From positions 41,512 through 105,511 of the IMG/VR virus record IMGVR_UViG_3300038468_000223: 64,000 nt of DNA; one strand, written 5' to 3'. This DNA comes from a virus. Positions 34,554 to 56,267 of the stretch are shown here, piece after piece; the first letter of the stretch is position 1, and each line of letters starts with the position of its first letter. Below the pieces are notes generated by a model. It was not told the DNA's origin and did no database searches. It worked only from the letters and a program-made list of their open reading frames with translations. Both the position numbers and the translations under genes were made by a program.

Positions 34554-35828
34554 ATGTACCGCCACGTACATTCGATCGGGCTCGGCGCTTCCGAGTTCGA
34601 TCAAAATCTCACGACCTATTTGACGACGAACGCTCCGCCGGAGGTCAGGCAGGCGATCTCGACGGAGGCGTCGGCCGAGCAGTTCGCCGCGCGCTCTCAA
34701 GCCACGATCGATTCGATGCGCGACATCGCCGAGGGCAAACAGCTCACGGTGGCGCAAGCAACAACGATCCTGACCACTGCCGCGAGCGCGATGGCCTTCG
34801 TCGCTGCAGGAGGCGTCGGATCGATCCTCGCTGGTGCCGGAGCCGCGGCCGCCACGACCGTCGCGCTCGGCGCCGCCGCTTCGGCCGGTGCGGTGATGGC
34901 GGCGATGGTCGCGGTGGTCATCGTCGTGGTTGCGGCCGTCGGATGGGCGCAAGGTGGGACGGGCAAGTGCGGGGACGCCTCGACGATCCCGTCCAGCCCT
35001 ACCGATCCTAGGTGGGTGGAGTTCACGGAATACGGACCAATCGCACAGCCTCGAAATGACTTCGAACGCTGGGCATCTCCAGTTCTAGTTCTGAACCACG
35101 AAATGAACGACAACTGCAGAAGCAGTCTGCCGGACCTTGTGCAGACGCTAGCATCGTTGTGGAATGAGCGGCACGAGGCCACGTCGATCCTGACCTACAT
35201 CGGTTACGACATCGACAAGCTTCCTACTTCAGGCCGATACAATTGGCCTGTCTACCCCAATCCACTCAACATCGTCGAGTTCGACCTGCGTGGTGGATCG
35301 ACACTCGGCGCGCCGAAAAAGATCTCCGTCAATCTCGGCAAGTTCATTCCTACTACACCTGCAGAGAAGTCGTTGCTGGTTGGACAGCTCAAAAAGGTGA
35401 GCCTGGTCGAACAACTAAACCTGAGCACGCCGTCGACGCAGTCTGCACAAACATCAACCGCGTCGAAAGTGATCGCTGGAGTCGCGGTGACCGCAGCGAT
35501 TTCTGCCGCGGCACTTTGGGCGTACGCCTACTACCAGAAGATCACCTTCGGGTCGGCGTTGTACAAGGTGGTGGGGCGCTTCGCGAAAGAGAACCCGATC
35601 GCCGTCGACGTTCCGCGCCGACGCACGTCGAAGGGACGCAGGCTGGCCTATCGCGTCAGACTCGATGCGTCGCCCTCGATGGAGTATGTTCAGGTCATGC
35701 CGGATGGATCAGCGATCCTGTTGCGCCACGGCCACCAGGTTGCGAAGTTCCGGCCTACGACCTACCAGCTCCCGAAGATCCATGCCGGCGACGGCGAGCT
35801 TCTGATCTTCGTCGATCAGCTCATCTGA
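34554..35828 (+). CDS. Membrane protein of the structural region
   Basis: 424 residues. A hydrophobic block at about residues 75-130 (AVMAAMVAVVIVVVAAVGWA at its end) gives one or two membrane segments; a second segment is near residue 310 (VIAGVAVTAAISAAALWAYA). Between them is a soluble domain (WVEFTEYGPIAQPRNDFERW). Lower-GC codon use than neighbours. No Shine-Dalgarno sequence; a -10-like box lies 6 nt before ATG. Virion membrane protein inferred. Confidence 0.6.
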   Translation: MYRHVHSIGLGASEFDQNLTTYLTTNAPPEVRQAISTEASAEQFAARSQATIDSMRDIAEGKQLTVAQATTILTTAASAMAFVAAGGVGSILAGAGAAAATTVALGAAASAGAVMAAMVAVVIVVVAAVGWAQGGTGKCGDASTIPSSPTDPRWVEFTEYGPIAQPRNDFERWASPVLVLNHEMNDNCRSSLPDLVQTLASLWNERHEATSILTYIGYDIDKLPTSGRYNWPVYPNPLNIVEFDLRGGSTLGAPKKISVNLGKFIPTTPAEKSLLVGQLKKVSLVEQLNLSTPSTQSAQTSTASKVIAGVAVTAAISAAALWAYAYYQKITFGSALYKVVGRFAKENPIAVDVPRRRTSKGRRLAYRVRLDASPSMEYVQVMPDGSAILLRHGHQVAKFRPTTYQLPKIHAGDGELLIFVDQLI

Positions 35829-35841
35829 GGAGAACGCCACG

Positions 35842-36582
35842 ATGCCCACGCTCACGCATCCGATCTTCAGCTCGGCGTACAACTTCGTGCAGCAGCAGCC
35901 GGTAGCCGCCGTGCAGCCGCTGCCGCCGACGCAGACGGTGACGACGCCGATCCAGACGCAGTCTCCGTCACCGCCGGTGATGGCGGTGAATCCGCAGGCG
36001 CCGGTCACGGCGGCGGTCCCCAACACGAACGGCCTCACCGAGATTGCGGACCGCCTGCTCGCGATGGACCAGGCGGCAGGAGGGCCGCAGAACATCGCGC
36101 AGAACATCGCGGCGGTCCAGAGCAACACCTCCTTCGGACCCGGGAACCCTCCGGTACGCCTGCTCACGGGGCTGCAGAACACGCTCTACGGCAACCCGAC
36201 CCAGAACCCGACCCAGTACAACGCCGATCAGCTCAAGGCGTCGGCGACGTACCTGCGCGACGTGGCAACGCACATGACGGCGCTCGAGGCGCAGGTGGCG
36301 ACCCTGCAGCAGCAGCTCGCTGCGGCCAACGCCGTCCCCACCACCACGAACGTGACGGTGCCGCAGGCACCGGCGTCGGGGTCGAGCATCAACTGGACCA
36401 CGCTCCTCGTCAGCGTGGGCGTCATCGCGGCGGTCGGCATCGGCGCTTGGTACGTGATGACGCACCGTCGGAAGCCGGCCGGAGTGCGCGAGGAGGAAGA
36501 GGAAGAGGCTCCGCCGCGCGTGATCGGCGGCGAGAACAAGCGCCTGTTCCCGCCGGCGCCGTCGCAGAAGCGGAAGAAGTGA
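35842..36582 (+). CDS. Single-pass membrane protein
   Basis: 246 residues. Long Gln/Pro/Thr-rich N-terminal region, a short helical segment (YLRDVATHMTALEAQVATLQ), then one membrane segment (TLLVSVGVIAAVGIGAWYVM) and a basic, Glu-containing tail ending PSQKRKK. The tail composition suggests N-out/C-in or interior orientation. GAGGAGAACGC precedes the ATG. Confidence 0.6.
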   Translation: MPTLTHPIFSSAYNFVQQQPVAAVQPLPPTQTVTTPIQTQSPSPPVMAVNPQAPVTAAVPNTNGLTEIADRLLAMDQAAGGPQNIAQNIAAVQSNTSFGPGNPPVRLLTGLQNTLYGNPTQNPTQYNADQLKASATYLRDVATHMTALEAQVATLQQQLAAANAVPTTTNVTVPQAPASGSSINWTTLLVSVGVIAAVGIGAWYVMTHRRKPAGVREEEEEEAPPRVIGGENKRLFPPAPSQKRKK

Positions 36583-36592
36583 GGAGAGGACG

Positions 36593-37324: not shown

Positions 37325-37327
37325 TCC

Positions 37328-39466
37328 ATGAGCGGCTTCGCCCCCGGCGTCGACAGCGCCCGCAAGAACCTGAACGGCGTCACGATCACCGAGAAGGCGT
37401 TCCCGCAGAACGCCGCGCACGGGGCGAAGTTCAGTCTGGAGGAGGTCGCCGCTCGCATCCTCAAGGGCGGCGCCGATCCGCGGATCCGCGGGTGGGCAGG
37501 CAAGGCGCTCGTCGAGGCGGGCTCGCCGAGCGACCGCCGGGAGCAGGCGCGTGCGGTGCTCAAGAAGCTGCGCTCGCAGACGGTCTACGTCGCCGATCCC
37601 GTCGGCGTCGAGTTCATCGCCGACGCGAAGTACACGCTCTGCCTCGACGAGCTGGGGCTGTGCCTTCCTGGGGCGGATTGCTTTCCGAAGGGAACGCTCC
37701 TGCTTCGCGACGACCTCGAACTCGTTCCGATCGAGGACATCCAGGTCGGCAACAAGATCTGGGGCTTGGACCAGTGGACGACCGTGCAGGCGAAGGCTTC
37801 CAAGGGCATCCTTGCGATCGATGCCCTCTTCTTGAACAACGGCTCGGTCGTCAAGCTCACCGGCGATCATCACGTCTACGTGGGTCGCTGCGAACAACAT
37901 GGACATGCCTGTTCGTGCAGATGGTCCGAGCGAAAGGAACAGCGCATCCGCGTCTCCGATCTTCGAGAAGGGGACGTGCTTGCGCAGCCCGAACGTGTTC
38001 CGTTCGGAGAAACCCCCATCTGGCGGCTCGGCGGCGATGAGTGGGCGATCTCACCGAATCGGCTGAAAGAAGATCGTGCGCCCGGTCGAATGCTTCGGGT
38101 CAAAGGGATCGAACGCGCGGTGATGGAGGTTCCGTGCTTCGACATCCAGACCGAGGACCACCGCGTCTACCTGCCCGAGCACGACGTGACGGTGAGCAAC
38201 TGCGACGATCTCGCGGTGGCCCTCGGCTCCGGACTGCTCGCCCTCGGCATCCCGGTGCAGGTCGTCGCCCAGTCCTTCGACAACTCGGGCATCCCGTCAC
38301 ACGTCCTCGTCGCCGCCGAGACGAGCCCCGACTACTGGGAGCGCGTCGATCCCTCGTCGCGCACCTACGACGTCGGTCAGTACTACCCCGCCGCTCGCGA
38401 GTGGTGGTTCGACCCTACCGGCGAGATCAAGCTCTCCGACGGCCGGCTGCGCGGCAGGTTCGTCGGCGTCGGGAACCTGCCGGACGTCTTCCCCGGCTAC
38501 CCGGGCACCGGGCTCGGGCAGTACGAGAACGTCTCGTTCCAGATCCCCAACATGACGCCCGAGCCGACGGCGAAGCAGAAGGAGGCCGTCTTCCTCACCG
38601 CGACCGAGCAGCTCTACGCCGCCGTCAACGGGCTCGACCTCGCGGTGACCGGACTGGAGAAGGCCGTCGGGCAGCTCGAGAGCGTACGACAGGTCCTGCG
38701 CCCCAGCGATCCGTTCGACCCCGGTGCGGAGGTGACCAGCGTCTCGCAGTTCCCGCGCGACGGGACGTGGTCGAAGAACATGAGCGCGATCTCGCACTGG
38801 CTGATCGACACGGGCAAGCGGCTCGTGAAGGCCGGCCGCGAGGCGCTCGCCGGCGGCCGGCGCATCTTCCTCGATCAGAAGACGCAGGACGCGTACATCG
38901 AGGGCAACGACTCCGACCCCTTCCGCCTCAACACCATCTTCAAGGTGAACGACGCGGTGCTCGCGTTCGTCAACCCACTCGGCGCCGCAGTCGCCGGGCT
39001 CACCGCGAAGGAAGGTCGCGTCCTCTCCAAGGAGGAGACGGAGGCCGAGCTGCTCGCCGCGCGGTCCAGCACGAGCGCGCAGGGCATGCAGCAAGGGCTC
39101 GGCAACCCCATCATCATCGTCGTCGTCGCCGTGGTCGCCGGCGTCATCGTCACCGGCATCGTCGCGATGCTGATCGTCAAGGAGTGGTGCCACACCGCCG
39201 AGGTGACCGCGATCGAGGCCACCAGGCAGGAGATGATGAAGTGTGTCGCCGCCGGCAGGTGCACACCCGACGACGTCATCAAGATGGAAAAGCAGCAGCA
39301 CGACAACCGCGTCGCCGAAGAGAAGGCCCGGTCCGAGAGCGACTTCTTCTCCAAGCTGGAGAAGATCGCGATCTACATGGCCGTCGGCGGCGCCGTCATC
39401 GCCGGTGCCTACGTCGCGGCCCCCGTCGTGAAGACCTTCGCCGAGAAGTGGAGCCACCGCACCTGA
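37328..39466 (+). CDS. Transglutaminase-like membrane protein interrupted by an intein
   Basis: 712 residues as translated; about 538 after splicing. Joining the exteins gives LPGAD-CDDLAVALGSGLLALGIPV, a transglutaminase/NlpC-like active-site helix with Cys as nucleophile, then a probable His/Asp region (SHVLVAAETSPDYWERVD). C-terminal membrane segments are near residues 610-635 (IIIVVVAVVAGVIVTGIVAM) and 690-708. A virion-associated peptidase or crosslinking enzyme is possible. The intein occupies residues 118-291. The unspliced protein would lack an intact active site. Confidence 0.65.
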   Translation: MSGFAPGVDSARKNLNGVTITEKAFPQNAAHGAKFSLEEVAARILKGGADPRIRGWAGKALVEAGSPSDRREQARAVLKKLRSQTVYVADPVGVEFIADAKYTLCLDELGLCLPGADCFPKGTLLLRDDLELVPIEDIQVGNKIWGLDQWTTVQAKASKGILAIDALFLNNGSVVKLTGDHHVYVGRCEQHGHACSCRWSERKEQRIRVSDLREGDVLAQPERVPFGETPIWRLGGDEWAISPNRLKEDRAPGRMLRVKGIERAVMEVPCFDIQTEDHRVYLPEHDVTVSNCDDLAVALGSGLLALGIPVQVVAQSFDNSGIPSHVLVAAETSPDYWERVDPSSRTYDVGQYYPAAREWWFDPTGEIKLSDGRLRGRFVGVGNLPDVFPGYPGTGLGQYENVSFQIPNMTPEPTAKQKEAVFLTATEQLYAAVNGLDLAVTGLEKAVGQLESVRQVLRPSDPFDPGAEVTSVSQFPRDGTWSKNMSAISHWLIDTGKRLVKAGREALAGGRRIFLDQKTQDAYIEGNDSDPFRLNTIFKVNDAVLAFVNPLGAAVAGLTAKEGRVLSKEETEAELLAARSSTSAQGMQQGLGNPIIIVVVAVVAGVIVTGIVAMLIVKEWCHTAEVTAIEATRQEMMKCVAAGRCTPDDVIKMEKQQHDNRVAEEKARSESDFFSKLEKIAIYMAVGGAVIAGAYVAAPVVKTFAEKWSHRT
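37679..38200 (+). mobile_element. Mini-intein (174 residues)
   Basis: Starts at Cys118 (CFPKGTLLLRDDLELVPIED, block A), has GSVVKLTGDHHVYV (block B, T-x-x-H), MLRVKGIERAVMEVPCFDIQ and TEDHRVYLPEHDVTVSN (blocks F and G) and ends with Asn291 before Cys292. The penultimate residue is Ser rather than His, as in some active inteins. No homing endonuclease domain is present. Its base composition is lower in GC than the flanks. Confidence 0.8.
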
Positions 39467-39472
39467 CACACC

Positions 39473-39502
39473 CAGTGAGCCCTCAACGTTCGAACGTTGA
39501 GG
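39473..39502. repeat. Diverged dispersed repeat containing a 22-bp perfect palindrome
   Basis: CAGTGAGCCCTCAACGTTCG (39473-39492) overlaps a perfect palindrome at 39481-39502 with 11-nt arms CCTCAACGTTC and GAACGTTGAGG. It lies between the intein-containing gene and the next gene; a regulatory site or a bidirectional terminator are both possible. Confidence 0.55.
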
Positions 39503-39531
39503 CCTGCACTGGTTGGGTGCAGACTCCTGGT

Positions 39532-39972: not shown

Positions 39973-42014
39973 AGCCCAAGAGCTACGTCGATGCGATGCG
40001 GAAGTTCCGGGGCGTGAGCAAACACGCCGCGGAGGGTCATCGCCGCCTCGTCGGATTGGCAGAGGGATCGACCTCAAATCCGCTGCGGGTTCCGGCCTCG
40101 TACGATCGTCAAGAGGAACTTCAACGATATTTGACCGAGAACTACGAAAGCTGTATCGTCCAGAAAACTGGTGGTGAGAGTGCTGCCGGTGCGCGCGACA
40201 AGACTCACTGCGCTAGGGTCGCGTGGAAGAGGGCTGAAGAGAGCGGGCGGTTTTCGGACTATCCAGCGTTCCACGGAGGAAGCAGGAACATGTCACGTCG
40301 CAACCTGAAGCCGCGCGCGCGGCGCCACGATCGGTGGGGTCGCTTCGCCGAGGTGATGGAGAGCAAGGCGCAGCGCAAGGCCGCCCGCAAGAAGTCGGAC
40401 AAGGCCGCGCACAAGGCCAAGAAGACGAGCAAGAAGGCCGCTGCCAAGCGCTCCGCGATGCAGGTCAAGGCCTCGAAGACCGCGGCGCAGGCGGAGAAGT
40501 CGTCGGCGATCTCGCGCGGCAAGGCGGAGGCGGCCAAGAAGGCTGCCGCCACCAAGGCGGAGAAGCACGCCAAGCGCGTGGCCGCCGGCAAGAAGGCGGC
40601 CGCCGCCAAGGCGGAGAAGCACGCCAAGCGCGTGGCCGCCGCCAAGAAGGCCGCGGAGACGCGCAAGAAGAACGAAGCCGCGGCTGCCAAGCCGGCGGCG
40701 AAGAACGAAGCCGCGGCTGCCAAGCCGGCGGCGAAAAAGAAGCCGAAGAAGACGGCCGCCAAGAAGCAGGCGAAGAAGGTCAAGAAGGAGAACAAGGCCA
40801 TGGCGCTGACCAACAGGCAGAAGGCGGCTCGGAAGGCCGCGAGGACGCGCGAGAAGAACCGGAAGGCCGAGGAGGAGCGCAAGGCGGCGGCCGCGCGCAA
40901 GCGTGCGCGCAAGGCCAAGGGCGGCGCCAAGAAGAGCAAGGGCACCAAGAAGAGCAAGGGCAAGAAGGGCGGCGCCAAGAAGACCGCCAAGAAGTCGAAG
41001 GGCAAGAAGGGCAAGCGCAAGGCCACCGTCGCCACCGTCCCCGGCACGCGCCGCGTGAAGGTCGGCGGGCACTCGCGCCAGGTCCCGAGCAACATCCGCA
41101 TCACCATCGGCGCCCCGGTGCACGCCCGCAAGGCGGCCAAGCGTCCGGCCAAGCGCAAGGGCGCGCGCGAGGACCTCGTGCTCGAGTCGATGTCGAACCC
41201 GATCTCCGAGGAGTACGCGCTCGAGAACCCGATGACGGGCGGCGAGATGTTCCTCGCGGCGGTCACGGGCGGCCTCGGCATCCTCGCCGCGAGCGGCCTC
41301 GATCGCTACCTCGCGACGCGCGACCAGACGCCGGCGCAGGGCCAGCCCGCGCTGACCCCGGCCGAGCAGGTCGCGTCGCCGCCGGGCATCCTGCGCGTCC
41401 TCGCCCAGGGCGGCATCGCGGCGGCGGCGTTCGTCGGCGCGTACTTCGTCCCGCAACCGATGGGCCGCGCGGCGCTGCAGGGCGCCGGCCTCGGCGCGTT
41501 CTCGCACCTCGTCGGGCAGGCCTTCATGACCTACCTCGTGCCGCGGTTCTTCAAGTCCAACGACACCGCGCGCAAGATGTTCCCCGCCGAGATCGCGGTC
41601 TACGAGCGCCTCAACCCGCCGCAGGCCACGACCACCGGGCAGCAGGGCCTGCCGATGGGCGTCGGCGGGTACCTGCCGCGCCACGGCATGGGCGTCGACC
41701 CCGCCGCCGCCATGATCGTGCGGCCGCAGAACCTCGACTACATGGGTCCGGCGCTGACGCGCAACCCGGTCGCGCCCCCGGCGCCGGCCGCGAACGGCGG
41801 CGGCGGATGTGGCCCGTGCGGCGGGTGCGGGGACCGCATCGAGCAGGGCGTCCCCAACGCGATCGAGAACGTCGCCAACGCCGCCAACGCGCCTGCCTCC
41901 ACGTCCGAGACCCTCTCGAGCGTGATGAGCGCGACGCGCGACGCGGTCTGCAACCCCGGCCTCGCCGGCACGAGCCGCTGGTACAACGCCGTCACCTTCG
42001 CGCCGGAGCACTGA
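39969..42014 (+). CDS. H1-like basic membrane protein
   Basis: 681 residues. Residues 45-100 carry a Cys/Trp module (ending ARVAWKRAEESGRFSDYP) shared with the protein at 52511. From about 115 to 370 it is Lys/Ala/Arg-rich like histone H1 or bacterial HctB-type proteins, with an 18-residue and an 11-residue tandem repeat. Then two hydrophobic segments (MFLAAVTGGLGILAASGLDR and GIAAAAFVGAYFVP) and a C-terminal domain with a CGPCGGCG cluster. It could tether packaged DNA to a virion membrane; this is inference. Confidence 0.6.
   Translation: MKPKSYVDAMRKFRGVSKHAAEGHRRLVGLAEGSTSNPLRVPASYDRQEELQRYLTENYESCIVQKTGGESAAGARDKTHCARVAWKRAEESGRFSDYPAFHGGSRNMSRRNLKPRARRHDRWGRFAEVMESKAQRKAARKKSDKAAHKAKKTSKKAAAKRSAMQVKASKTAAQAEKSSAISRGKAEAAKKAAATKAEKHAKRVAAGKKAAAAKAEKHAKRVAAAKKAAETRKKNEAAAAKPAAKNEAAAAKPAAKKKPKKTAAKKQAKKVKKENKAMALTNRQKAARKAARTREKNRKAEEERKAAAARKRARKAKGGAKKSKGTKKSKGKKGGAKKTAKKSKGKKGKRKATVATVPGTRRVKVGGHSRQVPSNIRITIGAPVHARKAAKRPAKRKGAREDLVLESMSNPISEEYALENPMTGGEMFLAAVTGGLGILAASGLDRYLATRDQTPAQGQPALTPAEQVASPPGILRVLAQGGIAAAAFVGAYFVPQPMGRAALQGAGLGAFSHLVGQAFMTYLVPRFFKSNDTARKMFPAEIAVYERLNPPQATTTGQQGLPMGVGGYLPRHGMGVDPAAAMIVRPQNLDYMGPALTRNPVAPPAPAANGGGGCGPCGGCGDRIEQGVPNAIENVANAANAPASTSETLSSVMSATRDAVCNPGLAGTSRWYNAVTFAPEH
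40554..40733 (+). repeat. Short tandem repeats coding Lys/Ala-rich sequence
   Basis: A near-identical 54-bp unit (AEKHAKRVAA-type, 40554 and 40608) and an exact 33-bp unit (KNEAAAAKPAA, 40668-40700 and 40701-40733). Such repeats are prone to copy-number change. Confidence 0.7.
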
Positions 42015-46735: not shown

Positions 46736-46738
46736 GTC

Positions 46739-47439: not shown

Positions 47440-47442
47440 TCC

Positions 47443-47913
47443 ATGAGCAACATCAGGCAGTATGCGGCGCCGTTCATCCCGACCGTCTCCAATACGCGGG
47501 GCGAATCAGCCTACTCGGCCGCCACGAACGTCGGCGATCGACTCAGCGACGCGCAGGTCGGGCCCAACAGCCCGATCTCGTTCCAGTTGGGGACGGCGCT
47601 GACCTCGCGGACGGGCGGGCGCTTTCGCATCTCGGCCACCATCTCCGGCACCACCTCGGTCGCCGGCGACGCCGTCTCCGTGCAGCTCGCACATACCATC
47701 CAAGGCGTCGGACCCACGCTCTTCGGACCGGTCGTGACCGTGAAATCTGGTGCGGCGACGGGCGAGTGGTCGGCGACGATCGAGGCGCTGACCCCCGCGG
47801 TCACCGCCGGGCAGACACTCCTGCCGGTAGTGGTTGTCACGGAACTCGGTGCCGGCACCGTGACTTCCCCCGCGGGAGCCGCGTACATCATGGCCGAAGA
47901 ACTGCCTGCCTAA
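47443..47913 (+). CDS. Beta-rich virion protein, EELP family member 1
   Basis: 156 residues. Beta-sandwich-like pattern (GGRFRISATISGTTSVAGDA) and C-terminus MAEELPA. Paralogous to the proteins at 49187 and 49659, which share the N-terminal T-R-G-x-x-A-x-x-A-x-x-N-x-G-x-x-x-x-x-A layout and the E-E-L-P end. Small spike or capsid cement proteins are likely. Confidence 0.55.
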   Translation: MSNIRQYAAPFIPTVSNTRGESAYSAATNVGDRLSDAQVGPNSPISFQLGTALTSRTGGRFRISATISGTTSVAGDAVSVQLAHTIQGVGPTLFGPVVTVKSGAATGEWSATIEALTPAVTAGQTLLPVVVVTELGAGTVTSPAGAAYIMAEELPA

Positions 47914-47928
47914 AGGAAGGGAAGGATC

Positions 47929-48984
47929 ATGCCCGTTCAGTGCCCCCAAGGAGTTCCGCAGGCCGCGTGCGACACGCTCGGCGGCCTCCTGCAGGCTCAG
48001 GGCGTCAACCCGCAGGGGTGGGACGCCTCGAACGTCGCGACGACGCTCCAGCAGTGGTACGCCACGATGTCGAAGCAGAACCCCAACGTCCCGCCGGCGC
48101 TACCCCCCAACGCCGCCGACTACGCCCTGCCCCCCTTCGCGAGCGTGCTGCCGTCGGTCCTGTCGTACTGGACCAACGTCGGCTACCGCAACCCGGGGAT
48201 CATGGGCAACGTCAACCCCGCCGCGTGGACCTTCCCGTGGCAGTACGTGAGCCCCCAAGCCACGGACTGGAAGCAGGCGACCGTCACCGCGCTCGGATCG
48301 ATGCTCGGTGACCCGAACGCGCTACCCGGCCTGCTCAAGGGTCAGCTCCCGCCGTTCGATCCGACCAAGATCAACTGGCAGCAGTTCGGCATCGCGCCGA
48401 TCGCGAGCGACCCGAACACGTTCGCGAACACCGCCAACGGCGTCGGGCAGCTCACGCCCGTCATGCAGGACTTCTTGACGAGGGCTGCGGCGTGCAACCT
48501 CCTGCAGAAGTCCGCGACCGAGGTGCAGCAGGCCTGGTCCGACTTCGTGTCCTTCGGCAAGGACCCCTGCGCGACCGCGCAGCCTCAGCAGCAGCTCCCG
48601 CCGGTCATCATCCAGCCGATCCCGGTCCCGCCCCCGACGGCCCCGCCGACGACGACCACGACGCCGGCGACGTCGAACGGCGCCCTCATCGTGGTCGGCG
48701 TGGTGGGGCTCGGCGCCGTCGGCGTGCTCCTCTACATGCTCGCCAAGAGCAGGCCCACCGCCGCCGCCGTCCCCCGCCCCGCCGAGGCCTCCGAGGAGGA
48801 AGACGCGCACCAGCACTCGTTCTGGCGCGGCTGGAACATCGTCGTCGAGCCCCGCGGCCGAGGCGCGTGGCACGCGTACGCGATGCGCCCGCAGACCAAC
48901 AAGACCTTCAAGGCCACCGCGCGTTCGAGCTACGATGCGGTGGAGGCGGTCAAGCACAAGATCGCCCACCACTACAGGAGCTGA
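47929..48984 (+). CDS. Single-pass membrane protein with recurring C-terminal module
   Basis: 351 residues. Polar, Pro/Gln-rich N-terminal domain of about 210 residues, a Pro/Thr linker, one membrane segment (LIVVGVVGLGAVGVLLYMLA), then the module FWRGWNIVVEPRGRGAWHAY ... AVEAVKHKIAHH. AAGGAAGGGAAGGATC precedes the ATG. The module is homologous to the N-terminal module of the protein at 36593. Confidence 0.6.
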   Translation: MPVQCPQGVPQAACDTLGGLLQAQGVNPQGWDASNVATTLQQWYATMSKQNPNVPPALPPNAADYALPPFASVLPSVLSYWTNVGYRNPGIMGNVNPAAWTFPWQYVSPQATDWKQATVTALGSMLGDPNALPGLLKGQLPPFDPTKINWQQFGIAPIASDPNTFANTANGVGQLTPVMQDFLTRAAACNLLQKSATEVQQAWSDFVSFGKDPCATAQPQQQLPPVIIQPIPVPPPTAPPTTTTTPATSNGALIVVGVVGLGAVGVLLYMLAKSRPTAAAVPRPAEASEEEDAHQHSFWRGWNIVVEPRGRGAWHAYAMRPQTNKTFKATARSSYDAVEAVKHKIAHHYRS

Positions 48985-48987
48985 GCG

Positions 48988-49173
48988 ATGAAGACCGAGA
49001 AGATCACCCTCATGTGCCAGGGCAAGTGCCCGCGCTGCCCCGAGATCACGATCCGCGAGGACGGATCGGCCGTCATCGAGGACAACGACGTCGATCCGCC
49101 GCAGCGCATCGAACTCAAGGACCGGGAGCAGGTCGTGCTGCTCAGGGACTTCCTCATCAAGAAGACCACGTAG
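48988..49173 (+). CDS. Small hypothetical protein
   Basis: 61 residues, CQGKCPRC near the start (possible metal site) and a charged strand-helix end. 3 nt after the previous gene. Confidence 0.45.
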   Translation: MKTEKITLMCQGKCPRCPEITIREDGSAVIEDNDVDPPQRIELKDREQVVLLRDFLIKKTT

Positions 49174-49186
49174 GAAGGAGACCATC

Positions 49187-49645
49187 ATGGGCAGGGAACG
49201 ACAGATCTTCATCCCGCAGCCGGGCGCCGACCCCACCACGCGCGGGAACGCGGCCTTCACCGCGGGCGCCAACAACGGAGAGGCGATCAACGCCGCGCAG
49301 ATCGGCCCCGCCGCGCCGGCGGTGCAGACGGGCGCCGTGACGCTCACGCCGCGCGTGAGCGGCAAGTTCCGCCTGACGGCCTCGGTCTCTGGCGTCACCG
49401 CCGCCGACGCGGACGTGACCGGCACGTTCCGCGCGAACGCCGCCGCGCTCAACAACACGATGCCGCCGCTGGCGGTCGTGACGTCGGGCGGCGCGACGCA
49501 CCGCTTCGCCCTCGACATGGAGGTGATCACGAGGGCGTACGCGCTCGGGACGCCGGTCGCCTTCGATCTCAACATCGCCTCGACGCAGAACATCACCATC
49601 GCGATCGGGCAGGCGACCTTCACCGCCGAAGAGCTGCCGGCCTGA
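49187..49645 (+). CDS. Beta-rich virion protein, EELP family member 2
   Basis: 152 residues. Close paralog of the next gene: IFIPQPGADPTTRGNAAFTA, VSGKFRLTASVSGV and FTAEELPA. Strong AAGGAGACC Shine-Dalgarno sequence. Tandem duplication suggests high-copy or heteromeric virion use. Confidence 0.55.
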   Translation: MGRERQIFIPQPGADPTTRGNAAFTAGANNGEAINAAQIGPAAPAVQTGAVTLTPRVSGKFRLTASVSGVTAADADVTGTFRANAAALNNTMPPLAVVTSGGATHRFALDMEVITRAYALGTPVAFDLNIASTQNITIAIGQATFTAEELPA

Positions 49646-49658
49646 AAGGAGCTGCATC

Positions 49659-50123
49659 ATGGGAAGCAAGGTGCAGCAGTTCGTTCCGCAACCGGAACAG
49701 CCGACCACGCGCGGGTCCTCGGCGTTCGCCGCCGCCGCCAACAACGGGCAGGCCATCAACGCGGCCCCGATCGGGCCCGCGGCCGCGGTCCAGACGGGCG
49801 CCGTGGTGGTCACGCCGCACGTCAGCGGCAAGTTCCGCCTGACCGTCAACATCACCGGCGTCACCGACGCCGACGACCTGGTCTCCGGCGCCTTCGCCGC
49901 CGACGGCAACCCGATCAACACGGTCACGCCCCCCGGCGCCGTCGTGCAGTCGGGCGGCGTCGCGCATCGCTTCGGCTTGAACGCCGAGGCGATCACCGCG
50001 GCCTACGCCGTCGGGACGCCGGTCTCGTTCGACTACCGCTTCGACACGTCGGTCGGCATCGGCTCGAACATCACCGTCGGGATCGGCCAGTCCGTCCTCA
50101 CCGTCGAAGAGCTGCCGGGCTGA
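49659..50123 (+). CDS. Beta-rich virion protein, EELP family member 3
   Basis: 154 residues. QFVPQPEQPTTRGSSAFAAA, HVSGKFRLTVNITGV and LTVEELPG align with the preceding protein over the whole length. AAAGGAGCTGC precedes the ATG. Confidence 0.55.
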   Translation: MGSKVQQFVPQPEQPTTRGSSAFAAAANNGQAINAAPIGPAAAVQTGAVVVTPHVSGKFRLTVNITGVTDADDLVSGAFAADGNPINTVTPPGAVVQSGGVAHRFGLNAEAITAAYAVGTPVSFDYRFDTSVGIGSNITVGIGQSVLTVEELPG

Positions 50124-50125
50124 TC

Positions 50126-50389
50126 ATGATCGTGGCGTTCGACATCCTCGCGCTGTCGTGCGCCACGATCATCTTCACCTGGGGCTCGCTCTTCGAGCGC
50201 CTCCGCGCCCTCTACCCCAAGATGCTCAACTGCCCGCTCTGCTGCGGGTTCTGGATCGGCCTCGGCGGCCACGTCCTGCGCTACAAGATGCAGACCGTCG
50301 TCGTCGACGCCTTCTACAGCGCCTGCGTGACGAGCGTGCTGGCGCTCGGGCTGTCGCTCGTCTTCGATCGACTGGTCGTCAAGTCATGA
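50126..50389 (+). CDS. Membrane protein, DUF1360-like
   Basis: 87 residues with two to three hydrophobic segments. LNCPLCCGFWIGLGGHVLR after the first segment resembles the C-x-x-C-x-G-x-W-x-G motif of DUF1360-type small membrane proteins. Function unknown. Confidence 0.5.
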   Translation: MIVAFDILALSCATIIFTWGSLFERLRALYPKMLNCPLCCGFWIGLGGHVLRYKMQTVVVDAFYSACVTSVLALGLSLVFDRLVVKS

Positions 50390-50859
50390 GCGACGACTAC
50401 AACTACATCCTCGGTGCCGTGCTCGCGATGGGGGGAGCGCCGCCAGAAGGGCGAGAGCTGCCGTTCGACACGCTCGTACTCTGCGCGCTGGAGCACCAGC
50501 CTCCTTCGCTCTGGTTCCCGAACACCCGCGTGATGCGGGTCATGCTCGACGACTCCGGGCCGCCCCCGACGCAGACCGAGATCCTGGCGGCAGTCGCCAT
50601 GGGACGAGAGGTCGCGCGACAGCTCCGGCACGGACGACGCGTGCTCGTGACGTGCTGGAAGGGGAGGAACCGATCGGGTCTCGTGACCGGCATCGCCCTA
50701 CTCGAGCTGGGTCTGTCGTGCCGCGCAGCGTTCTTCAACATCCGCTACGCGCGCGGTCTGAAGGCGCTCAACAACGAGCATTTCGTAGAGGTTCTGAGGC
50801 GCTACCGACCACATTCTGCGCTAGAGTTGGTCAATGACCGTCCTCGACACCATCCGTGA
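50386..50859 (+). CDS. Dual-specificity protein phosphatase-like
   Basis: 157 residues. VLVTCWKGRNRSGLVTGIAL contains the C-x5-R phosphatase loop (CWKGRNR) followed by S-G, and VMLDDSGPPP could carry the general-acid Asp. The residue before the Cys is Thr where most family members have His. Such enzymes remove phosphate from Tyr/Ser/Thr or from RNA 5' ends. It overlaps the membrane gene before it and the coiled-coil gene after it. Confidence 0.65.
   Translation: MSDDYNYILGAVLAMGGAPPEGRELPFDTLVLCALEHQPPSLWFPNTRVMRVMLDDSGPPPTQTEILAAVAMGREVARQLRHGRRVLVTCWKGRNRSGLVTGIALLELGLSCRAAFFNIRYARGLKALNNEHFVEVLRRYRPHSALELVNDRPRHHP
50822..50827 (+). promoter_or_regulatory. -10-like box 6 nt before ATG
   Basis: TAGAGT, TGGTCA, then ATG at 50834. 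It lies inside the end of the phosphatase gene. No clear -35. Confidence 0.35.
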
Positions 50860-51358
50860 GTACGCCGGCTACCTGGGGGTGGCCGGTGGCGGTGTCGCAG
50901 CGGAGATCTACAGGCGGTTTCGGCGCGCAGAGGCCCTCGCCAAGCAGGCGAACAAGAAGGCCGGCGACGCGATCGACAAGGCGAACGAGGCGATCACGTC
51001 GACTAAAACTCTAGCCGTAACGTTCGATCAACTACGACACGGTTTCCGACTCGAAGTTACGCAGTTCAAAGACGAGATCGAGAACCGCATCAACGCGATC
51101 GTGCGCGGCAGTCGTCCTGATCAGATCTTTGATCAGAGGCAAATCGATGAACTAGGAAAAGACATCGAGAAGCTTCACAAGATCTGCGACGAACTGAAGC
51201 AGGACATGCTCCGCGAACGCGGTCAACGCCACGCGCTACAAAAGGACATTCAGGAGCGTAGCCAAAAGGAAGCAGAATCATGGAGACACCTCGAAAGGAC
51301 TCTTGGAAGGATCGAGACGACGATCGAGATGCTCAAGACGCATCCACCGACGAGATGA
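50834..51358 (+). CDS. Coiled-coil protein
   Basis: 174 residues. A short hydrophobic N-terminus (YAGYLGVAGGGVAAEIYRRF) then a long coiled coil to the end. Less GC-biased codon use. It overlaps the phosphatase gene by 26 nt. It could be a spanin-like or virion-length protein; unknown. Confidence 0.5.
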   Translation: MTVLDTIREYAGYLGVAGGGVAAEIYRRFRRAEALAKQANKKAGDAIDKANEAITSTKTLAVTFDQLRHGFRLEVTQFKDEIENRINAIVRGSRPDQIFDQRQIDELGKDIEKLHKICDELKQDMLRERGQRHALQKDIQERSQKEAESWRHLERTLGRIETTIEMLKTHPPTR

Positions 51359-51471
51359 ACGAATCGGACGTCTACGACAAGCTCAAGATGTGCGAGTCGG
51401 CGCGCGCCAGTGCGCTCTCGAAAGCGAACGCACTTCTCGACGTGACCATCACTGCGGCAGCAAAGGAGTGA
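51355..51471 (+). CDS. Very small helical protein
   Basis: 38 residues (MNESDVYDKLKMCESARASA...) coupled by ATGA to the coiled-coil gene. An in-frame ATG at 51280 would give 63 residues but overlaps more. Low certainty. Confidence 0.35.
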   Translation: MNESDVYDKLKMCESARASALSKANALLDVTITAAAKE

Positions 51472-51476
51472 GCGGC

Positions 51477-51875
51477 ATGGACGACATCAAGCAGTACCTC
51501 GTGGACGACAAGAAGCTCGCCATCTTCATCGGGGCGCTCGTCATCGGGATGGTCGTGCGCCTGCTCAAGAGCGACGTGAAGGGACCCTCGATCGACCCGC
51601 GCTGGCGCATGCTCGCGGTGTGGATCCTCGGCGTCGGGCAGATGGTCCTGAACTACGGCCTGCACATGTCGTGGAAGCAGGCCGCCGAGTACGCGGTGGT
51701 CTCCGCGCTGATGGCGGTGGCGGGACACGAGACCATCATCGAGTGGTGGCGCGACGGCAAGGAGCTGCCCCTACCGGGCCTGATGGTCGCGCCATCGAAC
51801 GACAACGCGACGCCGACCAACAGCGTCGACGCGAAGAAGGATCCGCCCCCGCAAGACTCGAACAAGGCGGCATGA
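51477..51875 (+). CDS. Small multi-pass membrane protein (holin candidate)
   Basis: 132 residues. Three hydrophobic segments: LAIFIGALVIGMVVRLL, MLAVWILGVGQMVLNYGL and AAEYAVVSALMAVAG, with a charged, Asn/Pro-rich C-terminal tail. Size and topology suit a class I holin, but lysis genes are not adjacent. AAAGGAGTGAGCGGC precedes the ATG. Confidence 0.5.
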   Translation: MDDIKQYLVDDKKLAIFIGALVIGMVVRLLKSDVKGPSIDPRWRMLAVWILGVGQMVLNYGLHMSWKQAAEYAVVSALMAVAGHETIIEWWRDGKELPLPGLMVAPSNDNATPTNSVDAKKDPPPQDSNKAA

Positions 51876-51900
51876 ACGACGAGGGGCACAGGAGGTCGTG

Positions 51901-52134
51901 ATGAGCGAGAAGAAGGTGGGCGAGATGGTGGCGGGAGCCCTGGTGGGCGTGCTGCGCGACGTAGCGGTGAAGGCGGTGGGGGCGGCAGTCGAGAGCGTGC
52001 TCGAGGACGTGTCCAAGGGGCTGCAGTCGACCGACGAGAAGGTCGCGCGCACGCGCCGCAAGGTGGCGAAGACCACGCGCCGCCGCAAGGTCATCGACGT
52101 CGAGGTCGTCGACGCCGGCGAGAAGAGGCACTGA
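51901..52134 (+). CDS. Small basic protein with amphipathic helix
   Basis: 77 residues. A hydrophobic/amphipathic helix (VGEMVAGALVGVLRDVAVKA) then a Lys/Arg-rich segment (ARTRRKVAKTTRRRKV). AGGAGGTC lies just upstream. Membrane or DNA association possible. Confidence 0.5.
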   Translation: MSEKKVGEMVAGALVGVLRDVAVKAVGAAVESVLEDVSKGLQSTDEKVARTRRKVAKTTRRRKVIDVEVVDAGEKRH

Positions 52135-52508
52135 TGCGCCGGCGCCCCAAGGTCCGGCACATGTCGGAGCCCGCGGTCTTGCGGCGGGTGACCTACTTCT
52201 ACCCGCGCGCCGACGCGGGCGGTGTCCTGCACGGCGAGGCGCTCGCGATGCCGCAGGGGACGCAGCTCGTGATCATCGAGCAGCGCGGTCACCGCTACCT
52301 CGCCATGACGGAGCGCGCGCACCAGAAGTGGTGGGCGTGGCTCGAGGTGGACGCGTTCAGGACCGAGTTCCCGAACCCCATCTCGCGCCCGCTCGGGGCG
52401 GCGCTCGTGTTCGGCGCCGGCGTCGGAGCCGGCGTCCTGCTCACGATGATCCTCAACAGCGCGACGAAGGCGCAGGCGCCTTCGACGGCCGTCACCGTTC
52501 GGAGCTGA
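52134..52508 (+). CDS. Single-pass membrane protein
   Basis: 124 residues. Soluble N-terminal part (VTYFYPRADAGGVLHGEALA), membrane segment near the C-terminus (ALVFGAGVGAGVLLTMIL). Start and preceding stop share one base. Virion role inferred from its neighbours. Confidence 0.5.
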   Translation: MRRRPKVRHMSEPAVLRRVTYFYPRADAGGVLHGEALAMPQGTQLVIIEQRGHRYLAMTERAHQKWWAWLEVDAFRTEFPNPISRPLGAALVFGAGVGAGVLLTMILNSATKAQAPSTAVTVRS

Positions 52509-52510
52509 CC

Positions 52511-53158
52511 ATGCCGCTCTCCATCGATCGTTCGTACCCACGCTGGCGCCGGATGGAGCGCGACCTGACGCGCTACTACGAGGAGTGCGCGTCGAGCGCG
52601 CCGGCGAGGTTCCGCGGCAAGCGGCGCAAGAGCTACTGCGCCGGCGTGGCGTGGAAGCGCCTCAAGATGGCGGGGCGCTACCGCGACTACCCGGGCTTCG
52701 GGCGCGCGGCGGCCGAAGGCCGCGAGAACCCCCTCCCCTCCAAGACCAAGGACGCGCTCATCGCGACCGCGGTCATCGCCGGGGGCTTCGGCCTGATCCT
52801 CTACATGATCTCGAAGCTGCCGAAGAAGGCGCCGGCTCCGCCGCAGCCCTCTCCTCTTCCCGCGACGACGCCCACGGGCATCCCGGTCGTCCTCACCGAG
52901 CCGACCTACTACGTGCACCAGCGCCTCATCGACAGCCTCGACACGCAGGCGATGCGGTGCACCCTCCCCATGTTCGTATTCGCCGGGCCGAAGTCCGCGG
53001 CCGACGCCCTCGCGCGCCAGCTCACGACGCGCGCGCCGATCGGGGGGAGCGGCATGGTCGCCGTCTCGGTCGCCTCGCCGGCCGTCGAGCCGACGTGCAA
53101 CTGGCGCCGGGTCTGCCTCGCCGACGGCTCGTGCGTCGGCGCGGTCGGTCTCGGCTGA
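52511..53158 (+). CDS. Membrane protein with the AWKR...DYP module
   Basis: 215 residues. N-terminal Cys/Arg module (YYEECASSAPARFRGKRRKS, CAGVAWKRLKMAGRYRDYP) shared with the H1-like protein at 39969, then a membrane segment (ALIATAVIAGGFGLILYMI), a Pro linker and a C-terminal domain with CNWRRVCLADGSCVGA. Probably a virion membrane protein that also contacts nucleic acid; inferred. Confidence 0.55.
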   Translation: MPLSIDRSYPRWRRMERDLTRYYEECASSAPARFRGKRRKSYCAGVAWKRLKMAGRYRDYPGFGRAAAEGRENPLPSKTKDALIATAVIAGGFGLILYMISKLPKKAPAPPQPSPLPATTPTGIPVVLTEPTYYVHQRLIDSLDTQAMRCTLPMFVFAGPKSAADALARQLTTRAPIGGSGMVAVSVASPAVEPTCNWRRVCLADGSCVGAVGLG

Positions 53159-53169
53159 AGGAGGTCCTC

Positions 53170-53547
53170 GTGGTCGGCAAGGTCGTCGCGGCAGCAGCGA
53201 TCGGGGGCGTCACCGGGTGGCTGCTCGAGAACCTGCTGTTCGGGCGGCGCAACTCGAACCTGTTCGGCGGCCGGGAGGTGCCCTTCCTGCCGGTCTACGC
53301 CGTGGGGGCGGCCGCGGTCGTCGCCGCCGCCCCGCACCTGCGCGAGCTGCCCGCGGTCGCGCGCGCGGGCGTCTACGCGGGCGGCCTCTCGCTCCTCGAA
53401 CTCGCGGCCTGCGGCGCGGACCGCGAGCTTGGCCCCGCGTCCTGGGACTACGGCAACGGGGGCTGCGTAGACGTCCCCCACGCCATCACCTGGGGCGCGC
53501 TCGGCCTCGCCCTCGACGCCCTCACGACCAGTGAGCCTCGACGTTAG
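53170..53547 (+). CDS. Membrane protein, CmpB/ABC-type-IV-like
   Basis: 125 residues, GTG start with GAAGGAGGTCC upstream. Several hydrophobic segments; GWLLENLLFGRRNSNLFGGR, PFLPVYAVGA and SWDYGNGGCVDVPHAITWG follow the order of the CmpB-like putative transporter family (W-D-Y motif). Transport activity is not implied. The stop lies in a diverged dispersed repeat (53529-53545). Confidence 0.5.
   Translation: MVGKVVAAAAIGGVTGWLLENLLFGRRNSNLFGGREVPFLPVYAVGAAAVVAAAPHLRELPAVARAGVYAGGLSLLELAACGADRELGPASWDYGNGGCVDVPHAITWGALGLALDALTTSEPRR
53529..53545 (+). repeat. Dispersed repeat, diverged copy
   Basis: CAGTGAGCCTCGACGTT, at the end of the CmpB-like gene, 11 nt before the next ATG. Confidence 0.4.
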
Positions 53548-53555
53548 GAGAATCC

Positions 53556-54435
53556 ATGGATCCGATTCAGCAGACGAATCAGACGGCCGAAGAGGCGTTG
53601 TTCCTGGCACAGATGATGATGGCGCGCCTGTCGGGACGATCGGGCTCGAAGCTCTTCGTCTACCGCCCCGGCGGAGCGACGCTGCGAGACCAGAACGTCT
53701 TCGCCGACTGGAACGACCTCGAAGAGGTCCGGTCGCAGACCGTCGGTCCGAAGATCGTCCAGATCGACGACACCATCGTGTCGCCGGCAGTGATTCCTGT
53801 CGGCGTCTACGACATGGAGTCGACGACCCTCGTCGGCGACCTCGAGCGCGTGCACGCCGGCGTCAACGTGCTCTGCGACATCTCCGACGGCGCTCGTCTC
53901 GAGAACCTCGGCGACGTCGCGAACGGGCTCACCCTCACGTCGCACAGCACGACGGTGCCGGTGCACACGATGTCGGCAAACGACTTGCTCATCGTCGAGC
54001 GCGGAGCGGTCGTCCAGAACGCGCCGGGGTCGACGGTGTTCTTCAAGCTGCCGAACGGTGCGCAGGCGATCATCGTCTCGTACCTCGGCGGTCAGCTCGG
54101 CGGTGGGACGGGCGTCCCCTTCCTCAGCATCGACGCGGGCGGCGTCGCCACCGTCCTCCTCCTTCTCGGTGCTCGCCAACAACGTCATCGTGGGCGGTGG
54201 CACGGCCGGCATCATCGTGACGTCGCAGAGCGCGTTCGTTCAGACGCCGTTCCCGATCGTGCAGGGAGGGATCGCCGCACTCACCACGACGATCTACAGC
54301 TTCGCCAACTACACCGGCTTCCAGGGGCTGAACGCGGCTCCGTGGACGGCGCCGCCCCCGACGAACGTCGAAGACGCGATCAATCGCATGGCGGCGCTGC
54401 TTCAGGTCTTGAACGGTGGCGCGACCATTCCGTGA
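53556..54435 (+). pseudogene. Structural-region gene with an apparent +1 frameshift
   Basis: Good Shine-Dalgarno (TTAGGAGAATCC). Frame 1 reads about 200 residues (AEEALFLAQMMMARLSGRSG ... GVPFLSIDAGGVATV), and the protein-like sequence then continues in the +1 frame (FSVLANNVIVGGGTAGIIVT ... NRMAALLQVLNGGATIP) to the stop at 54435. The switch lies in the CTCCTCCTTCTC tract near 54152-54165. Joined, it would be about 292 residues, beta-rich, with a spike-like composition. Programmed shift, mutation or sequencing error cannot be separated here. Confidence 0.5.
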
Positions 54436-54441
54436 TAGGAT
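54436..54441 (+). promoter_or_regulatory. -10-like box 6 nt before ATG
   Basis: TAGGAT, TCGATC, then the ATG at 54448; no Shine-Dalgarno sequence. Confidence 0.35.
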
Positions 54442-54447
54442 TCGATC

Positions 54448-54723
54448 ATGAAGAAACTCATCGCGATCGTGTTCACCTCCGTCCTCGTGTTCGCTCAGGG
54501 TTGTACCAAGGAGCAACTCACGAAGGCCGAGCAGACCGTCTACGACATGCGGGCCGACCAGTTCGCCTGCGTCCTCGTCGCGAACCTCACGAGCGAGGAC
54601 GACGTCATGAAGTTCTGCCAGCTCGAGGAGCGCCTGCGGCCGCAGGTGCATCAGGTCTTCGTCGGCAAGGCGGCCGCCCGGCACGCCGAGGAGGCCGCGG
54701 CGGCGGCGCACAAGGGGCAGTGA
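54448..54723 (+). CDS. Small lipoprotein
   Basis: 91 residues. Signal MKKLIAIVFTSVLVFAQGC with a lipobox-like AQGC, then a charged helical mature part (ADQFACVLVANLTSEDDVMK). Outer-membrane spanin or exclusion lipoprotein are possible. A -10-like box lies 6 nt before ATG. Confidence 0.6.
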   Translation: MKKLIAIVFTSVLVFAQGCTKEQLTKAEQTVYDMRADQFACVLVANLTSEDDVMKFCQLEERLRPQVHQVFVGKAAARHAEEAAAAAHKGQ

Positions 54724-55448
54724 TGGGACGCCGCGGGTTCGGACTCAAGCTGGAGGCGCCGGTAGGGTTGCCGCTGCGGCCGCACCTCGGCGCCGCCGGC
54801 GATCCGATTCCGTCATCGGCCTCCATCGAAGACCTCGTCGACAAGGTCCGCGATCAGGGTCCGACCGAGGCGTGCGTGGCCTTCTGGCTCGGCGGCTCCC
54901 TCGAGATCGAGGCGCGCGCGCAGGGCATCGACCTCGGCGGCGAGATCTCGCGCCGCGGCCTGTACACGATGGCGCGCGAAGAGGAGGGGCTCTCCATCGT
55001 CGACACGGGGAGTCTCCCCTCGCTCGCCGTCTTTTCGGCGCAGAAGCGCGGCATCGTCTCCGAGCTGCGCTGGCCGTGGTCGGTGGCCGACATCAACGAG
55101 CTTTTGCCCTGGGACGTCTTCCAGCACGCGGTGAGGGTGACCGGCATCTACCGCGCCGAGGATCTCGGCGCCGTGCAGCTCGCGATCGTCAAGCGCCGCC
55201 CCGTCGGCTTCGACATGGTCGTGGACGAGTCCTACTACCACTACACGGGCGGCCTCTACGTGCCCGGCGGCAGGGTCCTCGGGCGGCACATGCAGACGAT
55301 CGTCGGCTACGAGCCCGGTCGCTACCGCGTGCTCGGGTCCTGGGGGCCCGACTTCGGTGAGAAGGGGTACGCCTGGGTTCCGGAGAGCATCGTCGACATC
55401 GCGACGAGCCGCTACGTCGTGAGCATCGCTCCGCAGGGGGTCGAATGA
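54723..55448 (+). CDS. Papain-like (C1) cysteine peptidase
   Basis: 241 residues. DKVRDQGPTEACVAFWLGGS near residue 40 corresponds to the papain D-Q-G-x-C-x-A-F block with Cys as nucleophile. GRHMQTIVGYEPGRYRVLGS then WGPDFGEKGYAWV corresponds to the His block and the N-S-W-G-x-x-W-G-x-x-G-Y block. The usual catalytic-site Asn before S-W-G is replaced by Gly here, so activity needs testing. No signal peptide or propeptide is visible, suggesting action in the cytoplasm or virion. A chagasin-like inhibitor domain is encoded at 36593. Confidence 0.65.
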   Translation: MGRRGFGLKLEAPVGLPLRPHLGAAGDPIPSSASIEDLVDKVRDQGPTEACVAFWLGGSLEIEARAQGIDLGGEISRRGLYTMAREEEGLSIVDTGSLPSLAVFSAQKRGIVSELRWPWSVADINELLPWDVFQHAVRVTGIYRAEDLGAVQLAIVKRRPVGFDMVVDESYYHYTGGLYVPGGRVLGRHMQTIVGYEPGRYRVLGSWGPDFGEKGYAWVPESIVDIATSRYVVSIAPQGVE

Positions 55449-55717
55449 AGACGATCGTTCTCGTCCTGCTCCTCGTCGTCGCTTGCGCGCCGTCGCCGGC
55501 CCCTCCGCCGCCGCTCGTACTCAGTGGGACGCCCTGCGAGCGGGCCTGCACGAACCTGCGCGCCGCGGGCTGCCCCGAGGGCGACGAGGTCAAGGGGCGC
55601 ACGTGCGAGACCGTCTGCGAGGAGAACGCGACGCTGCTCAACGTGAGCTGCATCGCGAGCGTCGAGCCGAAGCCGGAGAAGATCCGCGCCTGCGGGCGTG
55701 TTCGCTGCATGAAGTGA
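55445..55717 (+). CDS. Cysteine-rich lipoprotein
   Basis: 90 residues. Signal MKTIVLVLLLVVACAP with lipobox VVAC at Cys14, a Pro/Leu linker, then a domain with eight Cys in C-x3-C, C-x3-C-like spacing (CERACTNLRAAGCPEGD, TCETVCEENATL), typical of a helical disulfide-rich fold. ATGA overlap with the peptidase gene. Confidence 0.6.
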   Translation: MKTIVLVLLLVVACAPSPAPPPPLVLSGTPCERACTNLRAAGCPEGDEVKGRTCETVCEENATLLNVSCIASVEPKPEKIRACGRVRCMK

Positions 55718-55721
55718 CCCC

Positions 55722-56267
55722 ATGACCTGGACCAAGCTCACCCCCGAGGCGCCCATCTCGACGTTCGAGGGACCGATGTACCCGCTCGTGATGGGGCGCA
55801 CCTACCGTGGCACACTCACGCTTCCCGAGTTCAGGAGCGGGGTGCCGCAAACCTACGAGCCGTACCTGATCTCGGCCCTGACGGCGGCCTTCGCCGCGTA
55901 CGGCAACCCGACGCTCTGGCAGGCCGATCAGCAGCCCAAGGACTGGCCGGCGGAAGACGACGTGCCGACGACGGCGTCCGTCATCCGGTTCCAGCTCGTG
56001 ACGTTCCGAGATGGGGTCTTGCGAGGGCGCCTCCCGATCCCGCTCCCCAACACGCAGCCGGCACGGATCAACTACCTCTGGCGCCTCGACGAGACGACGC
56101 CCGTGACGCCGGCGCCGACTGCGCCCGCGACGCCGACCACGCCGCCAGCGACGCCGGTGAAGGGCTCGGGCGGGTGGGGCGCACTCTTCGCGCTCGCCGC
56201 GGTCGTCGCCGGGACCGGGGCGGTGGTGATGTACGTTCGATCTCAGCGACGTCTTCGACCCGCGTGA
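55722..56267 (+). CDS. Single-pass membrane protein
   Basis: 181 residues. Soluble N-terminal domain (YEPYLISALTAAFAAYGNPT), Pro/Thr linker, C-terminal membrane segment (WGALFALAAVVAGTGAVVMY) and basic tail. Last gene of the rightward structural block. Confidence 0.55.
   Translation: MTWTKLTPEAPISTFEGPMYPLVMGRTYRGTLTLPEFRSGVPQTYEPYLISALTAAFAAYGNPTLWQADQQPKDWPAEDDVPTTASVIRFQLVTFRDGVLRGRLPIPLPNTQPARINYLWRLDETTPVTPAPTAPATPTTPPATPVKGSGGWGALFALAAVVAGTGAVVMYVRSQRRLRPA

Follow-up and report, generated by a model that had tools for sequence, protein, structure and literature searches.

A membrane-rich capsid locus points to a probable lineage of large, tailless phages that contain a membrane and are distant allies of SSIP-1

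The window analysed here, a stretch of 64,000 nucleotides, comprises bases 41512-105511 of the 105,511-bp virus record IMGVR_UViG_3300038468_000223 (61% of the record) and contains a putative capsid gene, 42079 (genes are named by their start in the window), amid genes for membrane proteins. We consider it likely that the genome belongs to a large, tailless and membrane-containing kind of phage that forms a new lineage, with the phage SSIP-1 as a distant ally; its virion shape and membrane we infer from the gene content. As shown below by sequence comparison, this reading is supported by a circular genome, a conserved gene module with an enrichment of membrane genes, the lack of recognisable tailed-phage genes and the homology of one protein to the SSIP-1 virion protein gp34.

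The first and last 127 bases of the record are identical. Identical record ends are the usual sign of a circular assembly, and from this exact repeat we therefore conclude that the record probably represents a complete circular genome of 105,384 bp (GC content 67%), with 158 genes called on the whole record. The genome thus measures ~105 kb, and not "64-kb-plus" as given in the initial annotation. The central genes of the locus are the following, the locus counts referring to the relatives described thereafter (E, expectation value; aa, amino acids):

37328..39466, plus strand: transglutaminase-like protein whose C-terminal part bears membrane segments; homologous to gp34, a virion protein of SSIP-1 (profile E 6.1e-12)
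37679..38200, plus strand: mini-intein inside 37328, residues 118-291 (Hint match, E 0.085)
40290..42014, plus strand: protein with a lysine/arginine (K/R)-rich N-terminus and a conserved hydrophobic two-helix domain; the latter lies upstream of the capsid gene in 20/21 loci
42079..43413, plus strand: putative major capsid protein, 444 aa; its model matches jelly-roll capsids weakly
43500..44102, plus strand: second capsid-module protein, 200 aa, adjoining 42079; possibly a small capsid protein
44106..44927, plus strand: third capsid-module protein, 273 aa, with the conserved motif DGN(V/I)SWH; possibly a vertex or minor capsid protein

The first relative, a 78-kb contig (L031), was found with a 60-aa piece of the 37328 protein located after the intein. 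This record encodes a homolog of 42079 with 35% identity in the same gene order, and alignments seeded with it yielded four and then 21 loci in viral metagenomes. Homologs of 42079, 43500 and 44106 are present in all 21 loci with their order kept, and relatives of 37328 in at least 18 of them. When nine joined records were compared with this genome, a JAB/RadC-like gene, the transglutaminase-like gene and the three capsid-module genes were found in 9/9, the rest being patchy. Two further records are complete circles of 124.5 and 78.3 kb, and the GC content of the family ranges from 38 to 69%. The relatives stem from public viral metagenomes; none was found in the phage reference or bacterial genome collections searched, and none was confirmed in bacterial genome contigs. 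Likewise, the single 42079 protein as query gave no match in viral, genome, phage and plasmid collections. These records apparently constitute an undescribed virus family with genomes of 78-125 kb. A literature search, mostly without subscription papers and preprints, returned no description of tailless phages this large.

The conserved order in the 21 relatives, together with the GC content at third codon positions of 42079 (0.991, rank 2/68 genes) and 43500 (rank 3/68), is the reason why we regard 42079, 43500 and 44106 as real genes. Their products have no significant relative in Pfam or PHROGs, and that of 42079 none in PDB sequences or in phage or plasmid collections; profile searches of PDB sequences with the three alignments yielded nothing useful. 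Under a strict hydropathy cut (19-aa mean >1.9), none of the three has a predicted membrane anchor of its own. An AlphaFold2 model of the 42079 product based on the 21-sequence alignment reached a mean predicted local distance difference test score (pLDDT) of 67.8 and a predicted template modelling score of 0.68; the alignment of the relatives was needed for a usable model, as the single sequence gave a pLDDT of 29. The model displays a strand-helix-strand pattern twice, and 48 of its 50 best PDB matches in Foldseek are jelly-roll capsid proteins, including papillomavirus L1, PR772/PRD1 P3, and microvirus and tetravirus proteins. The best viral structural match is BFVD entry I1ZBH9 (211 aa, probability 0.84). 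SSIP-1 gp46 likewise has 211 aa, and we presume, without confirmation of its name, that the entry is an SSIP-1 protein. The initial annotation had proposed comparing this product with jelly-roll and HK97 folds: there is no HK97 chain among the listed matches, whereas a jelly-roll fold is no more than suggested by the model, at a Foldseek E of 0.009 at best.

The firmest link to a known virus is provided by SSIP-1 (record NC_017983), an unclassified double-stranded DNA (dsDNA) phage. Its particles are icosahedral and contain a membrane, and its circular genome measures 43,788 bp (PMC6356626). Its annotated structural protein gp34 matches the transglutaminase-like protein of the family with an E of 2.7e-6 as a single sequence and at the profile value given above. 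In a comparison with 50,697 phage records, the only matches of gp34 other than itself were a faecal contig of 4.5 kb and a pleomorphic virus of archaea. In addition, SSIP-1 gp45/46 can be aligned with the N-terminal half of the 42079 proteins over a PLT...GDT motif (pairwise E 9e-4, 22% probability in HH-suite), and none of 200 shuffled nulls reached the score of this alignment; hmmsearch gave no match, and we consider this relationship suggestive only.

SSIP-1 shares with this genome the circular dsDNA, an integrase and the membrane-anchored transglutaminase-like virion protein. Moreover, gp44, a hydrophobic structural protein with an NP motif, precedes gp45/gp46, as 40290 precedes 42079 here; the two proteins look similar by eye and their position before the capsid genes agrees, but their similarity was not above decoys. 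In contrast, SSIP-1 is smaller (43.8 kb versus 105 kb), has two capsid proteins of ~210 aa in place of one of 444 aa with neighbours of 200 and 273 aa, and is annotated without PolA, ThyX and tRNA genes, all of which are present here; its remaining proteins are unrelated to those of this genome at the sensitivity used. One virion protein is firmly common to both viruses by sequence, and the body plan is probably common as well.

The transglutaminase-like gene, which has relatives in all nine compared genomes, is interrupted by the mini-intein, which ends directly before the predicted catalytic Cys292. The relative L031 carries the same intein with a LAGLIDADG domain, and L040 and L047 are without it. 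The copy in 37328 looks like an eroded homing intein.

The search for tailed-phage genes covered this genome and 19 relatives (20 records), with positive controls. No match was obtained in these records for the terminase families PF03237 and PF04466, the portal family PF04860 and the HK97 capsid family PF05065, and terminase family PF03354 had no match in this genome. In PHROGs/Pfam scans of nearly all genes, the best 25 families listed for each group included none for tail, portal or terminase proteins, the scans of this genome yielding a weak "head morphogenesis" match (E 3e-4). No terminase-type protein is among the plausible P-loop candidates encoded here, which are a UvrD helicase, an AAA_24 protein and an AAA_25 protein resembling RecA. 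As judged by terminase, portal, HK97 capsid and tail genes, the sequence would thus fall outside Caudoviricetes. The failure to recognise terminase, portal and tail genes, first noted for the window, accordingly holds for the complete genome, and the search for TerL and portal in its remainder and in the relatives found none.

Likewise, FtsK (PF01580) gave no match above the cut-off in 22 records, and PF01935 (HerA/DUF87) none in this genome, with proteins in 5/20 records. The FtsK/HerA packaging ATPase expected by the initial annotation is hence absent from this genome. Three HerA/DUF87-like ATPases of relatives have long C-terminal extensions (G038:86934-88739, G044:14076-16256 and G039:53983-55983), and PRD1 P9 matches one HerA/DUF87-like protein of the relatives (E 8.5e-4). 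Such proteins may represent packaging ATPases that only some members of the lineage have retained; a role as lineage-wide packaging ATPase was rejected, as they are absent from this genome and most others.

The dominance of membrane proteins at the capsid locus, the starting point of the initial annotation, was borne out by the counts. Under the same strict cut, 13 of the 33 genes between 32640 and 56267 encode a membrane segment (including 55445, which has just a lipoprotein signal), whereas in the replication arm and the left arm together 1/101 does so (Fisher p = 1.7e-8). In ten pooled family genomes, membrane genes amount to 60/234 (26%) within 10 kb of the capsid gene versus 69/962 (7%) more than 20 kb away (p = 1e-13), though individual records do not all show this. 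A second membrane-protein cluster spans the circle junction, and the proteins at 1-602 and 61.6-62.4 kb likewise have membrane segments. The membrane proteins and their neighbours are as follows:

34554-35828, plus strand: membrane protein (hydropathy)
35842-36582, plus strand: membrane protein (hydropathy)
36593-37324, plus strand: membrane protein (hydropathy) with a chagasin-like protease-inhibitor domain (Inhibitor_I42, E 1e-5, just under the cut-off)
44945..46309, plus strand: LysM-like protein with two internal repeats (by eye) and one membrane segment at 312 (LysM, E 4e-4, just under the cut-off)
46322, 46739, 47929, 50126, 51477, 52134, 52511, 53170 and 55722, plus strand: remaining virion-region membrane proteins (hydropathy)
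54448 and 55445, plus strand: lipoprotein-like proteins in the 46322..56267 cluster (hydropathy)
54723-55448, plus strand: papain-like protease (Peptidase_C1, E 2e-7)
3..602, minus strand: membrane protein of the second cluster with a membrane segment at 22; its complete length in the record is 292 aa
61645..62373, minus strand: membrane protein of the second cluster, membrane segment at 140, with a relative in G030
63598..64000, plus strand: GH25 lysozyme across the circle junction (PF01183, E 8e-24), continuing at L001:16-477 (E 1e-14)

Wall-degrading domains with a hydrophobic tail in the junction cluster are GH25, which ends in a tail with a hydropathy of 1.7, and M23; an SLT-like transglycosylase (marginal match) is encoded in the left arm. 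The membrane-anchored chagasin-like domain, of a papain-inhibitor type, and the papain-like protease lie in the same virion region and perhaps form a protease-inhibitor pair. Small repeated proteins of ~150 aa (47443-47913, 49187-49645, 49659-50123 and L003:8116-8559), several of which end in EELPA or EELPG, make up a paralogous family with its window copies in the virion region. An NP-before-membrane signal motif was found in 7/36 membrane proteins, the capsid protein itself among them, versus ~6% expected, and is not claimed.

In the replication arm the following gene was found:

27499..30729, plus strand: PolA-type DNA polymerase with an extra N-terminal domain (phrog_17, E 6e-103)

Further replication and nucleotide genes encode a UvrD-like helicase, ThyX and a deoxynucleoside monophosphate (dNMP) kinase. 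The N-terminal domain of PolA (27499-27750, residues 3-95) occurs alone in many large viral contigs, and PolA as bait retrieved mostly unrelated contigs brought in by this domain. Twenty-three tRNAs are predicted, two of them with stop-codon anticodons at 950-1025 (minus strand) and 58512-58584 (plus strand), namely TTA (reading TAA) and TCA (called selenocysteine, reading TGA). TAA ends 9 and TGA 120 of 157 genes, and recoding of TGA looks unlikely because it terminates so many of them. A GroES-like co-chaperonin (21408-21791; Cpn10, E 1e-4, over the cut-off) is encoded just upstream of two possible spike genes. The latter, 22574-24214 (546 aa) and 24579-25943 (454 aa), are paralogues without Pfam match that appear beta-rich by eye, have the start motif DG..I.V.SV.DYF in common and have relatives in G035; they are candidates for spikes or receptor-binding proteins. 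Outside the window, an IS605-type TnpB (L001:4139-5668) and a tyrosine integrase (L001:7528-8520) are encoded. Since integrase relatives are present in 4/9 family genomes, some members may be temperate.

Based on these data, the 42079 protein together with those of 43500 and 44106 would build an icosahedral jelly-roll shell around a membrane vesicle, in whose membrane the many single-span proteins and the membrane-anchored wall-cutting enzymes would reside. The 40290 product, with up to 45 K/R per 100 aa in its lysine-rich part in this genome, is proposed as a DNA-to-membrane linker that would tie the condensed DNA to the inner membrane face. Upon infection, the vesicle together with its enzymes may breach the cell envelope for delivery of the DNA, in the manner of PRD1. 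For the more specific proposal of a family- or order-level lineage of 78-125 kb circles that packages without an FtsK/HerA or terminase motor, with the lysine-rich membrane protein condensing DNA against the vesicle, we see about an even chance.

Several observations weigh against a tailless membrane phage allied to SSIP-1. The similarity of the capsid proteins is weak, as the HH-suite value indicates, the Foldseek matches of 42079 are not significant and have low TM-scores (template modelling scores), and the membranes are predicted by simple hydropathy. Furthermore, the transglutaminase-like domain is a widespread fold that could have been exchanged on its own. Finally, most tailless dsDNA viruses have an FtsK/HerA packaging ATPase, and because none was found in this genome, packaging is unexplained. 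FLiP and Sulfolobus polyhedral virus 1 (SPV1), however, are reported without a packaging ATPase (PMC8812541). SSIP-1 may also be without such a motor, as its ATPase gp40 looks RecA/KaiC-like by eye.

The known tailless viruses resemble this genome in part. Thermus phage P23-77 and its relatives (Singelaviria, Helvetiavirae) correspond in the internal-membrane plan predicted here and in lysozyme and transglycosylase genes, but P23-77 has 17 kb and a packaging ATPase, and its VP16 and VP17 have no detectable sequence similarity to this genome. PRD1 and PM2 (Varidnaviria, Bamfordvirae) likewise have membrane proteins in the virion gene set, with the membrane-anchored transglycosylase P7 of PRD1 following a similar logic; in contrast, their genomes comprise 10-15 kb, their P9-type ATPase is absent here, they replicate by protein priming or rolling circle in place of PolA, and their P3 and P2 have no sequence link to this genome. 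FLiP and SPV1 are jelly-roll viruses, the fold weakly predicted here, yet their genomes are much smaller and that of FLiP is single-stranded DNA. With a capsid fold that is only suggested and without the packaging ATPase that most members possess, the genome cannot be assigned to Varidnaviria or Singelaviria; candidates for the two single-jelly-roll capsid proteins of the Singelaviria type would be 42079 and 43500, with the fold weakly predicted for 42079.

It is unlikely that the same tailless plan employs 42079 as a PRD1/PM2-type double jelly roll (Varidnaviria) and not the single-jelly-roll type of SSIP-1 and P23-77. The 444 aa would suffice for two barrels, the strand-helix-strand pattern is repeated, and P3 of PR772 and PRD1 is among the weak PDB matches; however, PRD1-type matches occur only at E >1, the two halves of the product are not detectably similar to each other, and the sole firm virion-protein link is to SSIP-1. 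A diverged Caudoviricetes phage with terminase, portal, capsid and tail genes beyond recognition, its membrane proteins serving lysis and the surface, is improbable, even though PolA, the UvrD-like helicase, ThyX and the dNMP kinase resemble tailed-phage genes and both a tRNA array and a genome of 100 kb are usual for tailed phages. We rejected it on the lack of terminase, portal and HK97 families in the complete genome and 19 relatives and of a terminase-type protein among the plausible P-loop candidates; the membrane-gene enrichment at the capsid gene and the virion protein in common with SSIP-1 likewise speak against it.

An enveloped or pleomorphic virus without an icosahedral shell, its particle made of membrane proteins and 42079 serving some other function, would account for their dominance and for the missing packaging ATPase, and a pleomorphic archaeal virus is among the few other records matching gp34. 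Yet the most conserved part of the lineage consists of three proteins without predicted anchor, and the model of 42079 matches capsid proteins, which renders this quite improbable. The circular genome, the tyrosine integrase, TnpB and a capsid candidate that matches no known capsid family would also fit a plasmid-like or integrative element whose conserved module makes a cell-surface structure. We give this the least credence of all, as endolysin-type enzymes, phage-type nucleotide metabolism and the tRNA array are phage features, one protein is homologous to a virion protein of SSIP-1, and no plasmid record was matched. Taken together, the tailless interpretation of the initial annotation is supported by the absence of HK97, terminase and portal matches and by the gp34 homology to a tailless internal-membrane phage, SSIP-1.

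To our knowledge, SSIP-1 with 43.8 kb is the largest tailless membrane phage; the range of 10-20 kb stated in the initial annotation omits it. Such phages have otherwise been thought confined to small genomes, a survey of phages with double jelly rolls giving 7-18 kb (PMC5894146) and another source <20 kb for tailless membrane phages (PMC8812541). The 78-125 kb genomes of the predicted family are two to three times the size of SSIP-1. Giant viruses of eukaryotes arose by expansion of a related body plan; if our reading is true, an 80-125 kb lineage equipped with a polymerase, nucleotide metabolism and tRNAs of its own would indicate that such genome growth took place in bacteria as well. SSIP-1, which has hardly any relatives so far, would become part of a family that is held together by a conserved module, and the packaging of DNA in the absence of a recognised motor would become a testable question.

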